Shown here: positions 1,331 to 36,878 of the stretch, piece after piece | How the letters are laid out: each line of letters begins with the position of its first letter | How positions within the stretch are numbered: position 1 is the first letter of the stretch | Assembly (NCBI GenBank): GCA_016222905.1 | Contig: JACRPZ010000018.1 | Coordinates: forward strand, 1-37,179 | Length of the DNA stretch: 37,179 bases | DNA from: Nitrospirota bacterium | GTDB taxonomy: Bacteria; Nitrospirota; Thermodesulfovibrionia; UBA6902 | Reading direction: 5' to 3' | The notes under the pieces: generated by a model | Database searches by the model: none | What the model was told of the DNA's origin: nothing | The model's input: only the letters and a program-made list of their open reading frames with translations | Position numbers and translations under genes: made by a program

Positions 1331-2815
1331 ATGAAGTGCGCTCTTGTCATACCGTCATGGATTCCTGAGGATATTTTTTCCTCAAAGACAGCAGGTTCCC
1401 AGATAAATTACTGGCAGCCGCTCGGAACGCTTTATGTCGCGTCTTCACTCATGAAGGCTGGGCATGAAGTTATATTTCTGAACGGCGCTTTCATGACCCA
1501 CAGCGAAATACTCGAAAAACTTCTTGAATTCAGTCCTGATGTTGTCGGCATATATTCAACTGCTTTCGGATGGAATAAGGCGATGTTTACGGCTTCGGAA
1601 GTAAGGCGGGTTGAGAAAGAATCCCTAACAACAACCCCCCATTTCCCCTTTATTAAGGGGGAACATGCCATTTTTATTACGGTGGGCGGGCCGTATCCTA
1701 TCGCAATGCAGGAGAAATGCCTTGAAAATTCTCAGGATATTGACGCGGTGGTTACGGGGGAGGGCGAGATCACTTTTGTCGAAATGTTGGATAACATATC
1801 GCATGGAAGAAGTCTTGAAGGCGTTCAGGGGGTTGTTTACCGGGCAGGGGATGGGATAGTAAAAAATCCTCCGCGGCCTTTGATCACAAACCTCGATTCA
1901 CTTCCTTTCCCCGCAAGAGAACTGCTTGGGGATGATAGGAACTATATACCTCCTCCTGCAACTTATAAAAGAAAACCTGTAGCTGTTATCATGACCGCAA
2001 GGGGCTGCAATAGGAGATGCCTTTTCTGTTTCCAGATTGATAAGACGAGGAAGAGCGGCATTCGCTTCCGCGGCGTTGAGAATGTTATGCAGGAGATTGA
2101 GCTTTGCCTGAAGCAGGGTTACAGGGAGATTAAATTCATTGACGACACGCTTGCCGCTGATTATGACAGGGCAATGCAGATCGCTCATGAGATAAAGAAG
2201 CGGGGGCTTGATTTCACATGGTTCGCATCCGCCTGCGTGAATCAGGTTGATTACAAACTCCTGAAGGCATTCAAAGATGCGGGCTGCTGGGCGATACTCT
2301 TCGGAGCGGAGAGCGGTGTACAGAAGGATTTAAACACCATAAAAAAAGGAATAACACTTGAGCAGACGCGCAAGGCTGTGAAAGCTGCTAAAGATGCAGG
2401 TCTTACAGTTTATACTCCATTTCTTTTCGGCATCCCGGGGCAGACATATGATGACGGGCTTAAGAGTATTAAATTTGCCTGTGAGATCAACCCTGACATT
2501 GCCAACTTCCATGCGATAACGCCGTTTCCCGGCTCTGAGCTTTATGACAACCTTGAAAAGTACGGCACAATGTCTGATGACCTGAATGATTTCACTTATC
2601 AGGGGGCGGCCTTTGTCCCTTACTCAATGACGAGGGATGAGATAACAAAGCTCAGGCAAATAGCCTTTAAAAAATTTTATTCAAGGCCGGGATATGTTGT
2701 CGGCAGGTTGTTTAAACTCAGGAGCATGAATGATATTAATGCCGCGTTAAAAGGGGCCAAGAGCCTCTTCTGGATATTAGTACGAAGGGATATTTTCCAC
2801 AAAGTCAGCAGATAA
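1331..2815 (+). CDS. B12-binding radical SAM protein (with in-frame repeat insertion)
   Basis: This 494-residue protein has an N-terminal cobalamin-binding Rossmann domain (about 1-180; VTGEGEITFVEML is typical). A radical SAM TIM barrel follows, with the iron-sulfur cysteines C226, C230 and C233 in GCNRRCLFCF. Such enzymes (BchE/P-methylase type) catalyse methylations or ring chemistry on unreactive carbons; the substrate cannot be read from sequence. About residues 98-113, between VRRVEKE and IFITVGGP, are encoded by a copy of the palindromic repeat found in intergenic regions of this window (1628-1662). The insertion keeps the frame and falls in a loop before a Rossmann strand, so the enzyme is probably still functional. 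It converges on the next radical SAM gene with a 16-base gap. Confidence 0.88.
   Translation: MKCALVIPSWIPEDIFSSKTAGSQINYWQPLGTLYVASSLMKAGHEVIFLNGAFMTHSEILEKLLEFSPDVVGIYSTAFGWNKAMFTASEVRRVEKESLTTTPHFPFIKGEHAIFITVGGPYPIAMQEKCLENSQDIDAVVTGEGEITFVEMLDNISHGRSLEGVQGVVYRAGDGIVKNPPRPLITNLDSLPFPARELLGDDRNYIPPPATYKRKPVAVIMTARGCNRRCLFCFQIDKTRKSGIRFRGVENVMQEIELCLKQGYREIKFIDDTLAADYDRAMQIAHEIKKRGLDFTWFASACVNQVDYKLLKAFKDAGCWAILFGAESGVQKDLNTIKKGITLEQTRKAVKAAKDAGLTVYTPFLFGIPGQTYDDGLKSIKFACEINPDIANFHAITPFPGSELYDNLEKYGTMSDDLNDFTYQGAAFVPYSMTRDEITKLRQIAFKKFYSRPGYVVGRLFKLRSMNDINAALKGAKSLFWILVRRDIFHKVSR
1628..1662. repeat. Palindromic repeat copy inside a coding region
   Basis: The sequence reads ACAACAACCCCCC followed by a CCCCTTTATTAAGGGG hairpin and GGAA. 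It matches the intergenic copies at 21981-22016 (reverse orientation), 22114-22146, 21036-21070 and, more loosely, 20729-20760. This copy lies in frame in the radical SAM gene and adds about 16 codons, including TTPHFPFIKG. Confidence 0.8.
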
Positions 2816-20575: not shown

Positions 20576-20728
20576 TTAATATTTACCTTTATTTTTATTC
20601 TGCATTTTAGAGAAGTTTATCGCTATGCTCTGTTCCATGTCAAGAAAATTATAGGTAACATGCCGATAAAACCTGAGTTTTTGTATTGTAGGGAGGGTGA
20701 TAATTCAATAAAAAGATTATAATAAATA

Positions 20729-20760
20729 CACCCCTTTATCCCCTCTTTATAGAGGGGAAA
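20729..20760. repeat. Palindromic repeat, divergent copy
   Basis: ACACCCCTTTATCCCCTC then TTTATAGAGGGGAAA. CCCCTCTTTATAGAGGGG forms a hairpin. It follows the consensus of the other copies more loosely. It lies just upstream of the YggU-like gene at 20775. Confidence 0.55.
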
Positions 20761-20774
20761 TAATAAAAACGCAA

Positions 20775-21032: not shown

Positions 21033-21035
21033 TCT

Positions 21036-21070
21036 CAACATCCCACTCCACCCCCTTTATTAAGGGGGAA
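21036..21070. repeat. Palindromic repeat copy downstream of the YggU-like gene
   Basis: CAACATCCCACTCCA followed by CCCCCTTTATTAAGGGGG and AA. The 18-base hairpin is a nearly exact match to the copies at 21981 and 1628. Lying just after a stop codon, it could also act as a terminator or mRNA stabiliser. Confidence 0.7.
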
Positions 21071-21209
21071 TAAAAGAAAGATTTCCGATCCCGAATCTTC
21101 GAGAGGAATGACGTCTCTTGAAACTATAATTATTTTCTTGAGAGTTCCCGTAAGAACCAAATTATTAAAAAAATATTTGACTTTGACTCTATTATTATCA
21201 AAATTTATG

Positions 21210-21902: not shown

Positions 21903-21980
21903 AAACATGCCCAAGATTAAATGATCCCGGAAAAGGCGCTTTCTCAAATTGAGCGGGTAAAGTGTTTAGAAAGTCTTTTT

Positions 21981-22146
21981 TTCCCCCTTAATAAAGGGGG
22001 ATGCAGGGGGTTGTTGTAAAGCAAATTACTATAAAATAATCTTAAAACTTGCAAGAGTATCAAGGATTTTGCTTTATAAATACCAATTGATGGACAACAA
22101 GAACGCAAATCATGACAACCCCCTAACCCCCTTTTTTAAGGGGGAA
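21981..22146. repeat. Pair of palindromic repeats in opposite orientation upstream of bioF
   Basis: One copy at 21981-22016 reads on the minus strand and one at 22114-22146 reads on the plus strand. Each has a CCCCCTT...AAGGGGG hairpin and an adjacent CAACCCCC arm. Between them TAAAGCAAA (22017-22025) pairs with TTTGCTTTA (22068-22076). The whole 166-base segment therefore has inverted-repeat symmetry, like a small non-autonomous element. It fills most of the 269-base gap between queE and bioF. Confidence 0.7.
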
Positions 22147-22171
22147 TTACCGACTAAGAACCAAAATAAGA

Positions 22172-34187: not shown

Positions 34188-35675
34188 ATGAAGTCTCTTT
34201 TCAGTTCCGCCGATTTCAGCAAGTTTCCGTGCACTACTATGAAAATTCTTATACAGAACAAAAAAGAAACAGCCCTTGGTTGTGACGTATTGATATTACC
34301 CCTGTTGGAAGGCGAAGGAATCACTTCTTACAAAGATATAAACAGATCATTAAACAATATGCCTGACAAAATTATTTCTTCGGGGGAATTTAACGGCAAG
34401 CTCAGCGAAATTTGCCTGATCCACACAGGGGGAATGATAAAACCTGACAGGCTTTTCCTTATCGGCCTCGGGAAAAGAAGCGAAATTACTGCCGAGAAAC
34501 TGAGGCAGGCAGGCGGCAAGGCTTCTTCGTATTTGAGCGGCCTGAAGATAAAAGAGATCGCTCTCTCAGTAAAGACGATTGCTTCTTTGAAACAGACTCC
34601 CATTGCCTTTCTTGAAGGAGCGCTGCTTGCCAATTACAATTTCCATATATACAAGAAGGAAGAGAACCATAAAGAGATTAAAAAGATCACCATCCTTACA
34701 AAAGAAAAGCTGGAGAAACAGATCAAGTGGACGGAGGCCGCTGTAAGCGCCGCACACTTTGCGCGAAACCTGGTCAACACCCCCTCAAACGACATGACCC
34801 CATCCGCGCTTGTCAAAGCCGCTCGTTCTCTGAAAAATGTCTCTGTGAAGGTAATCGAAAAAAATGAGGCCGAACGGCTTGGCATGGGCGCGTATCTTTC
34901 AGTCGCAAGGGGCTCCAATGAACCGCCGAAATTTATTGTCATCACTTATAAGGGCAAAAAGACCGCCCCTGTTGTGCTCGTGGGTAAGGCGATAACATTT
35001 GACAGCGGAGGGATCTCCATCAAACCGAGCGAGGGGATGGAGAAGATGAAGTACGACATGGCGGGCAGCGCCGCCGTGTTAGGCGTAATAAAGGCCGCAT
35101 CTGAATTGAAGATGCCCGTGCACATAATCGGCATCCTTCCCGCTACTGAAAACCTTCCGGGCGGCAAGGCATTCAAACCGGGCGATGTAGTGAAAACAAT
35201 GAGCGGCAAGACCATTGAAATAATCAGCACAGACGCTGAAGGCAGGCTCGCGGTTGCGGACGCTATCGAATACGCGAAACGATTCAAGCCCTCTGCAATT
35301 ATTGATATCGCAACCCTCACAGGGGCCTGTTCAATAGCATTCGGCAATGAAGCTGCTGCGATGATGGGAAATGATAAAGCGCTCATGAAAAAGATGATGG
35401 ACGCTTCATTGGAAACTTACGAACGCGTATGGCAGATGCCTCTTTTTGAAGAGTATAAAGAATACCTTAAAAGCGATATTGCAGATTTAAAAAACGTTGG
35501 AGGCAGGCCCGGCGGTCTTATCACAGCAGGATACTTCCTCAAGGAATTCGCGGGCGATACTTCGTGGATACATCTTGATATCGCGGGCACGGCATGGACT
35601 GATAAAGACAAGCCCTATATCCCCAAGGGTGCAACCGGGATCGGGGTGAGACTGCTGCTTAGTTTCTTAAGATAG
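34188..35675 (+). CDS. pepA: Leucyl aminopeptidase (M17) PepA
   Basis: This 495-residue dimetal aminopeptidase is usually a cytoplasmic hexamer. VGKAITFDSGGISIKPSEGM, KYDMAGSAAVLG and STDAEGRLAVADA (usually NTDAEGR) hold the metal ligands, and NTPSNDMTP precedes the catalytic domain. The family N-terminus fits ATG 34239 (MKILIQNKKETA), which would give 478 residues; ATG 34188 has a weak AGGT upstream. The end of the gene is duplicated at about 36283-36479. It stops 7 bases before the end of convergent hicB. A short perfect inverted repeat (AAGATA-GG-TATCTT, 35669-35682) at the stop may end transcription from both sides. Confidence 0.94.
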   Translation: MKSLFSSADFSKFPCTTMKILIQNKKETALGCDVLILPLLEGEGITSYKDINRSLNNMPDKIISSGEFNGKLSEICLIHTGGMIKPDRLFLIGLGKRSEITAEKLRQAGGKASSYLSGLKIKEIALSVKTIASLKQTPIAFLEGALLANYNFHIYKKEENHKEIKKITILTKEKLEKQIKWTEAAVSAAHFARNLVNTPSNDMTPSALVKAARSLKNVSVKVIEKNEAERLGMGAYLSVARGSNEPPKFIVITYKGKKTAPVVLVGKAITFDSGGISIKPSEGMEKMKYDMAGSAAVLGVIKAASELKMPVHIIGILPATENLPGGKAFKPGDVVKTMSGKTIEIISTDAEGRLAVADAIEYAKRFKPSAIIDIATLTGACSIAFGNEAAAMMGNDKALMKKMMDASLETYERVWQMPLFEEYKEYLKSDIADLKNVGGRPGGLITAGYFLKEFAGDTSWIHLDIAGTAWTDKDKPYIPKGATGIGVRLLLSFLR

Positions 35676-36282: not shown

Positions 36283-36479
36283 ATGTAAAGAACGCGGGAG
36301 ACAGGTCAGGCGGTCTTATCACCGCGGGATACTTCCTCAAGGAATTTGCAGGCGATACACCGTGGATACATCTTGATATCGCAGGCACCGCATGGACTGA
36401 TAAAGACAAGCCCTATATCCCCAAAGGCGCAACCGGGATTGGGGTAAGGCTGCTGCTGAGTTTCTTAAGAACTGTTTGA
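36283..36479 (+). pseudogene. Second copy of the pepA 3' end
   Basis: About 195 bases match bases 35482-35675 of pepA. The frame reads KNAGDRSGGLITAGYFLKEF and on to GATGIGVRLLLSFLRTV, where pepA ends LLLSFLR. Most DNA differences are at third codon positions. From GGLITAG onward only one residue differs (Pro for Ser) before the added TV. Upstream of about 36283 there is no pepA sequence, so the gene is a fragment without its active-site region. It ends 6 bases before the convergent vapC end, as pepA ends 7 bases before hicB. Confidence 0.85.
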
Positions 36480-36485
36480 ACTCGC

Positions 36486-36878
36486 TTACAGCAGTGTTAT
36501 CGGCAAATATTTCTTGTAATTTTCAAAATCTTTATCGGTTGTAAAGATAATAATATTTTCAATGTTTGCAACAGCGCAGATCAAAAAATCTATCGTTGAT
36601 CCCTGAACGCCTCTTTTTCGGCAGATATTGCTAAATTCAGCAGCCTTTATATAATGGTCGGTTTCAAGAGTCAAATCCTCGAAAGCGGCAAGCGTATCTT
36701 TTAACTTGTTAAATTGTGAGCCATTGGATATGCCAGAAAGAAGCTCCTGCCGGATCGGCCCAATCATAACTACCGATCCGTTTTTTATAAGTTCTATGGT
36801 TTTATCGCTCATCGCCGCGTCTGAAGACTTATGTCTGAGTACTTTAGACCAGACGCATGTGTCAATGAGAACTTTCAT
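36486..36878 (-). CDS. vapC: VapC-family PIN-domain toxin
   Basis: This 130-residue PIN-domain ribonuclease has the acidic metal-binding residues D6 (LIDTCVWSK), E45 (RQELLSG), D97 (GSTIDFLICA) and D115 (FTTDKDF). VapC toxins cut tRNA or rRNA and are neutralised by VapB. Its start overlaps vapB by 4 bases. It converges on the pepA 3' fragment with a 6-base gap. Length is normal. Confidence 0.9.
   Translation of the reverse strand: MKVLIDTCVWSKVLRHKSSDAAMSDKTIELIKNGSVVMIGPIRQELLSGISNGSQFNKLKDTLAAFEDLTLETDHYIKAAEFSNICRKRGVQGSTIDFLICAVANIENIIIFTTDKDFENYKKYLPITLL

Follow-up and report, generated by a model that had tools for sequence, protein, structure and literature searches.

A gene in the analysed window, which comprises the whole 37,179-nucleotide stretch of the Nitrospirota contig JACRPZ010000018.1, encodes a B12-binding radical SAM enzyme and very probably owes 16 of its codons to a small palindromic repeat, non-autonomous and referred to here as element A, which inserted in a lineage-specific event, landing undirected and passing the filter of selection. 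At least three repeat classes have independently occupied the same enzyme loop in these genomes, with empty sister sites at hand for comparison, and in-frame palindromic repeats, which are best known from Rickettsia, are here encountered in another phylum. The respective features are collected in Table 1.

The inserted DNA reads TCCCTAACAACAACCCCCCATTTCCCCTTTATTAAGGGGGAACATGCC and lies in a gene whose reading frame (1331-2815) remains open despite the insertion, the affected protein stretch being ESLTTTPHFPFIK. As judged from an automatic alignment of about 105 orthologues, the loop from W81 to GGPYP consists of 37 residues in the window copy versus 20-23 in the insert-free orthologues, with 21 as the commonest value, which accounts for the 16 extra codons. 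The additional peptide is absent from the three nearest orthologues, which are up to 84% identical, and from most of the about 105 others. In a tree built without the loop columns, the window copy forms a clade with the sister genes L017, L018, and L032 at an SH-aLRT value of 100, and since all of these are insert-free, the insertion is to be regarded as a gain in the lineage of the window. These data bear out the proposal of an earlier note, made from the letters alone, that about 16 codons were added in frame, and the alignment with orthologues lacking the peptide, which it had suggested as a check, comes out in its favour. The repeat is indeed present at the proposed span of 1628-1662, but the insertion proper is slightly larger than that, extending over 48 nt (1622-1669) versus about 36 nt of recognisable repeat, and some flanking bases are unaccounted for by the repeat. 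A clean target-site duplication is not visible at this position, the closest empty site, at a DNA identity of only 78.5%, being too diverged for it to be read. The genome is a draft of 90 contigs with repeats found at contig ends, which might raise the suspicion of an assembly or annotation artefact; this carries next to no probability, as the insertion is located inside a contig, with an intact frame and conserved residues on either side, and equivalent insertions are present in independent assemblies (e.g., L046, L048, L049, and L056).

Table 1. Features of the host gene, copies of element A in the window, and further open reading frames of the same genome containing element A.
Feature	Position	Strand	Basis
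Host gene, B12-binding and radical SAM domains, 494 aa	1331..2815	+	Pfam, folds, cysteines
Helix 81-97 of the B12 domain, terminates at insertion	1571..1621	+	AlphaFold2 DSSP
In-frame insertion, 48 nt, codons 98-113, peptide SLTTTPHFPFIKGEHA	1622..1669	+	Orthologue loop comparison, tree
Element A core, ACAACAACCCCCCATTTCCCCTTTATTAAGGGGGAA	1628..1663	+	Leave-one-out profile, covariance model 47.3 bits, repeat family D2
Strand 115-119, directly after insertion	1673..1687	+	AlphaFold2 DSSP
Element A, intergenic, diverged variant	20721..20766	+	Profile and covariance model
Element A, intergenic	21033..21077	+	Profile and covariance model
Element A, intergenic, left hairpin of compound unit	21974..22019	-	Profile and covariance model
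Element A, intergenic, right hairpin of 21941-22146 compound unit	22110..22153	+	Profile and covariance model
ORFs with element A: HypB, fused NifE/N-like protein, CobB/CbiA-like (weak match)			Pfam
ORFs with element A: two transglutaminase-like, DNA methylase, AddA-like helicase			Pfam
ORFs with element A: reverse transcriptase (two compound inserts), O-methyltransferase			Pfam
ORFs with element A: beta-propeller-type ORF, FeoB, others			Pfam

The Pfam assignments of the host protein comprise a B12-binding domain at residues 27-152 (8.5e-16) and a Radical_SAM domain at residues 222-382 (1.3e-20), its best-matching solved folds are those of AprD4 (6fd2), CysS (9n1b), TsrM (6wte), and MgmA (9ccb), and the cysteines C226, C230, and C233 are invariant in the orthologue alignment. 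Comparison with L017 yields a dN of 0.104 and a dS of 1.43, the latter being so near saturation that only the dN/dS contrast is meaningful; at a ratio of 0.07, the gene outside the insert is under purifying selection. An AlphaFold2 model (mean pLDDT of 81.5, 51 sequences) places the 16-residue insert in a floppy loop of the B12 domain that connects helix to strand and is of low confidence, with pLDDT values below 50 at residues 101-103 and 106-110. Domain assignment and model therefore agree with the previously suggested placement in a loop of this domain. In Rossmann-like B12 domains, helix-to-strand loops of such type generally face away from the cofactor. Because the frame is kept and the insert resides in a flexible helix-to-strand loop, the radical SAM enzyme presumably still works.

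Element A is a dispersed repeat with the consensus nnnnAACAACCCCCTnnATCCCCCTTTnnTAAGGGGGAATAAA, a core of 29-33 nt, a match length of 46 nt, and an insertion length of 48 nt. A profile that omits the window copy and was derived from 24 others recognises the stretch 1628-1663 at E = 9.7e-8 and also matches the four intergenic copies in Table 1, confirming that the same hairpin occurs at 20729, 21036, 21981, and 22114, as had been noticed before, with the first of these copies being more diverged. The exact core pattern CCCCTTN{2,8}AAGGGG is present at 31 genomic places versus 0 for the reversed control pattern, and a covariance model based on 25 copies (cut-off 19.7 bits) retrieves 85 matches in 58 clusters from the same genome (2.84 Mb in 90 contigs, with the window as contig C5), in which the stretches around the repeats were read. 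Element A is further found in 49 of 61 relatives and in 65 of 198 sampled genomes, representing 48 of 96 genera; none of the Rfam families matches in the window. Folded as a single strand, the window copy does not stand out from shuffled sequences (z -1.15), so hairpin stability alone does not make the case for this copy, while the copies of L024 and L019 and the element C described below fold far better than their shuffles (z -8.0, -4.9, and -7.4, respectively). Two inverted element A hairpins constitute a compound unit of about 200 nt at 21941-22146 of the window, and similar units open the contigs C62 (1-340) and C66 (1-335), an arrangement which suggests a REPIN/MITE-like unit that breaks the assembly.

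The loop of the radical SAM protein is occupied by repeats in several other genomes as well. Element A hairpins account for inserts of 90 nt in L034, 60 nt in L024, and 45 nt in L019/L046; also found at this loop are the tandem heptamer (AGTCAGA)n, termed element B, in L022, L023, L026, and L028 (27 nt), and the GTAG-tagged hairpin CGTAGGGGCGGGTTTCAAACCCGCCC(C/T)TAC, termed element C, in L020, L021, and L122 (net gain of 6 nt), with decayed-looking versions of the latter in L030, L042, L043, and L084. Each of the two additional classes is dispersed in its own right and occurs in 9 of 13 genomes, versus 0 for the respective control, element C in its GTAG-ended form GTAGGGGCGGGTTTN..AACCCGCCC accounting for 1-106 strand-counted matches in these. 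Empty sites again accompany filled ones on the tree, since the very close sister of L024, L036, is empty (clade at 100, 88% DNA identity, likewise too diverged for a target-site duplication to be read), as are the relatives L089 and L079 of L122. Parsimony requires four changes for element A, two for C, and four for B (seven for all states together), by which count element A appears to have arisen four times at this loop. A single clade for element A is rejected in the AU test (p-AU 2.4e-56), with the tested group picked after the loops were seen and the loop columns excluded from the tree; one ancestral element A insertion is rejected on this basis. Within the genus g14, it is uncertain how B and C were gained and lost, because the inner branches are weakly supported there. 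Orthologues from distant genomes with the same residues as part of the normal fold would have spoken against an insertion, as stated in the earlier note; three distant orthologues do show similar residues at this loop (SPFVKGG, PLNKG, and PLDKG), but as independent insertions from the same class of repeat, as indicated by the empty sister genes and the rejection of one origin.

Every insert seen in the radical SAM gene (27, 45, 48, 60, and 90 nt) has a length divisible by three and is devoid of stops, which argues for translation of the repeats. If the ribosome bypassed the repeat or if it were removed from the RNA, resulting in a protein without the peptide, such frame-keeping and stop-free inserts would not be required; despite the bypassing of palindromic inserts in mitochondria of Magnusiomyces, an example cited in PMC6649704, this possibility must be considered as highly improbable. 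The recurrence of P-[FL]-x-K-G-like peptides at the loop in four genomes could point to a functional adaptation, e.g., a selected binding or regulatory loop. This is very unlikely, too, given that length, sequence, and repeat family of the inserts vary by genome (B giving rise to SEVRSQKSEV and C to RGGFQTRP), that most orthologues have no insert, that the low-confidence prediction shows the insert as a floppy loop, and that the same repeats also turn up in intergenic positions and in proteins unrelated to this one.

The distribution of element A over the genome bears on how such insertions arise and survive. Only about 17 of the 58 clusters lie within ORFs of at least 190 aa, although coding sequence makes up a fraction of 0.83-0.84 (binomial p about 2e-21). 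The element is therefore present in other coding regions, as the earlier note had proposed to check, yet it is depleted from genes, and the rarity of such copies indicates that insertion is not aimed at genes. Moreover, 3.56 of the six frames are open per element A, equal to the value of 3.56 for random 36-mers, which speaks against an intrinsic coding bias; of the in-frame bias for which a scan had been suggested, there is no sign in the element itself. The likeliest and simplest mechanism we infer is undirected insertion filtered by selection: element A and the two unrelated classes would spread through the genomes and insert without regard to the reading frame, and selection would purge nearly all insertions in genes, the survivors being those of 3n length that are free of stops and placed in an insertion-tolerant loop. 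As selection would spare only insertions in tolerant loops, a few loops would gather repeats again and again. A RAYT/REPtron association of elements A, B, and C was considered and is rejected for 33 Y1_Tnp loci (3 in the same genome and 30 in nine relatives), among which no mobilising enzyme was identified and which have none of these repeats close by, the only ones around them being three degenerate copies of A and one GTAG hairpin at distances of more than about 0.8 kb.

It may alternatively be assumed that insertion is targeted, with a feature of the loop, such as an existing repeat, a DNA or mRNA hairpin, or single-stranded DNA of the lagging strand, drawing repeats to it as to a landing pad. 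The sharing of one radical SAM site by unrelated repeat classes is consistent with such targeting, as are the compound or nested inserts (90 nt in L034, 52-80 aa in a reverse transcriptase ORF, and two hairpins in AddA) and the occurrence of different REPs at a similar position of recB in Xanthomonas (PMC3733652). We nevertheless regard it as unlikely, in view of the strong overall depletion of the copies from genes and the lack of an earlier repeat in the sister genes of the window insertion. Furthermore, the radical SAM protein has hardly another indel-tolerant place, and the same pattern is thus expected from selection alone: among 109 sequences, the only other position with large inserts is at residues 141-143, where three Desulfobulbaceae/Desulfurivibrio sequences contain inserts with no repeat in them. 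It is similarly doubtful that loops of conserved proteins in these Nitrospirota generally serve as true landing pads to which one shared mechanism steers unrelated repeat classes; if they did, selfish DNA would keep rewriting the linker length and sequence of core enzymes. The insertions provide a natural experiment on how selfish DNA makes new protein segments and on which positions tolerate random peptides.

A comparable hot-loop pattern is observed in all three further genes that were compared with their orthologues. For the methyltransferase, 5 of 11 orthologues are insert-free and the rest contain different hairpins or a heptamer-like repeat, the AddA orthologues carry A, C, or compounds in the loop, and the NifE/N-like protein exhibits three separate loops with different palindromes or heptamers across the genomes. 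This latter, fused nitrogenase-type protein is encoded at L182:1455-4100 (contig C27:14354-16999 of the same genome). The ORF at L179:1413-3476 (contig C53:7012-9075), which shows a reverse transcriptase domain and a match to MutS domain I, harbors two compound in-frame inserts of about 52 and 80 aa from element A hairpins. Several of the intragenic clusters are N-terminal (e.g., in FeoB) and may be located upstream of the true start. Repeat-encoded peptides in other ORFs of the relatives G041, G021, G024, and G013 produce protein matches that are spurious, partly in frames that stay open over 368-1093 aa and partly in frames interrupted by stops. As unrelated proteins share element-encoded peptides, repeat inserts mislead gene and protein comparisons and represent a trap for homology searches.

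Insertions within genes are known from the Rickettsia palindromic elements (RPE), as had been stated in the earlier note; these are dispersed palindromic repeats with several families per genome, occurring in frame in unrelated protein genes at positions compatible with the protein fold (PMC10969869, PMC6649704). Element A is likewise a dispersed palindrome found in frame in protein genes, but it measures about 36-48 nt versus the roughly 150 nt first reported for RPE (PMC10969869), is mostly intergenic, does not have the CGTC end of RPE-4/RPE-6, and occurs in Nitrospirota from groundwater or other environmental samples, according to the record titles, rather than from hosts. To call such cases rarely noted elsewhere was too strong, since intragenic GTAG/CGTC REPs have been catalogued in several bacteria as hairpins of 20-40 nt, single or grouped, within ORFs (Di Nocera et al., 2013; PMC3733652). 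The grouped ones encode 20-82 aa, their hosts include RecBCD/UvrD-type genes, and the recB genes of two Xanthomonas species carry different REPs at roughly the same position (PMC3733652). Element C, GTAGGGGCGGGTTTNAAACCCGCCCCTAC, starts with GTAG like these REPs, whereas element A lacks both tags and is not located near a RAYT gene; another difference is that one loop receives several repeat classes here, in several genera and documented by a tree and empty sister sites. The three similar units in which two inverted hairpins flank a spacer, among them window 21941-22146, resemble REPIN, BIME, and MITE structures, but no terminal inverted repeat belonging to a resident IS was identified, with Y1_Tnp genes as the transposase type covered. 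Element B corresponds to the rotated complement of the class-3 heptamer MTYCTGA of Geobacter metallireducens, where other heptamers sit within and between genes (PMC2700814); the Geobacter heptamers have been described as putative regulator sites (PMC2700814), while element B lies in frame in protein loops. In the open-access literature, no paper was found on such repeats in Nitrospirota. New aspects are the lineage, the absence of a tag on the repeat, and the clear recurrence, supported by the tree, with which repeats of different classes fill one loop of a protein.

The window contains some further repeats. In the segments 35485-35672 and 36283-36470, the 3' end of a leucyl-aminopeptidase-like gene is partially duplicated over 188 nt at 89% identity, adjoined by a PIN-like ORF at 36486-36878 on the minus strand. 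A 66-nt piece at 148-213 is 83% identical to positions 990-1055 in the start region of the downstream MazG-like gene (957-1307) and is probably a gene remnant. Finally, the 29-nt sequence TTTTGTATAGATTTTTACATGAGGCAACG is directly repeated within 75-139, the other copy being 86% identical and the two lying 36 nt apart.
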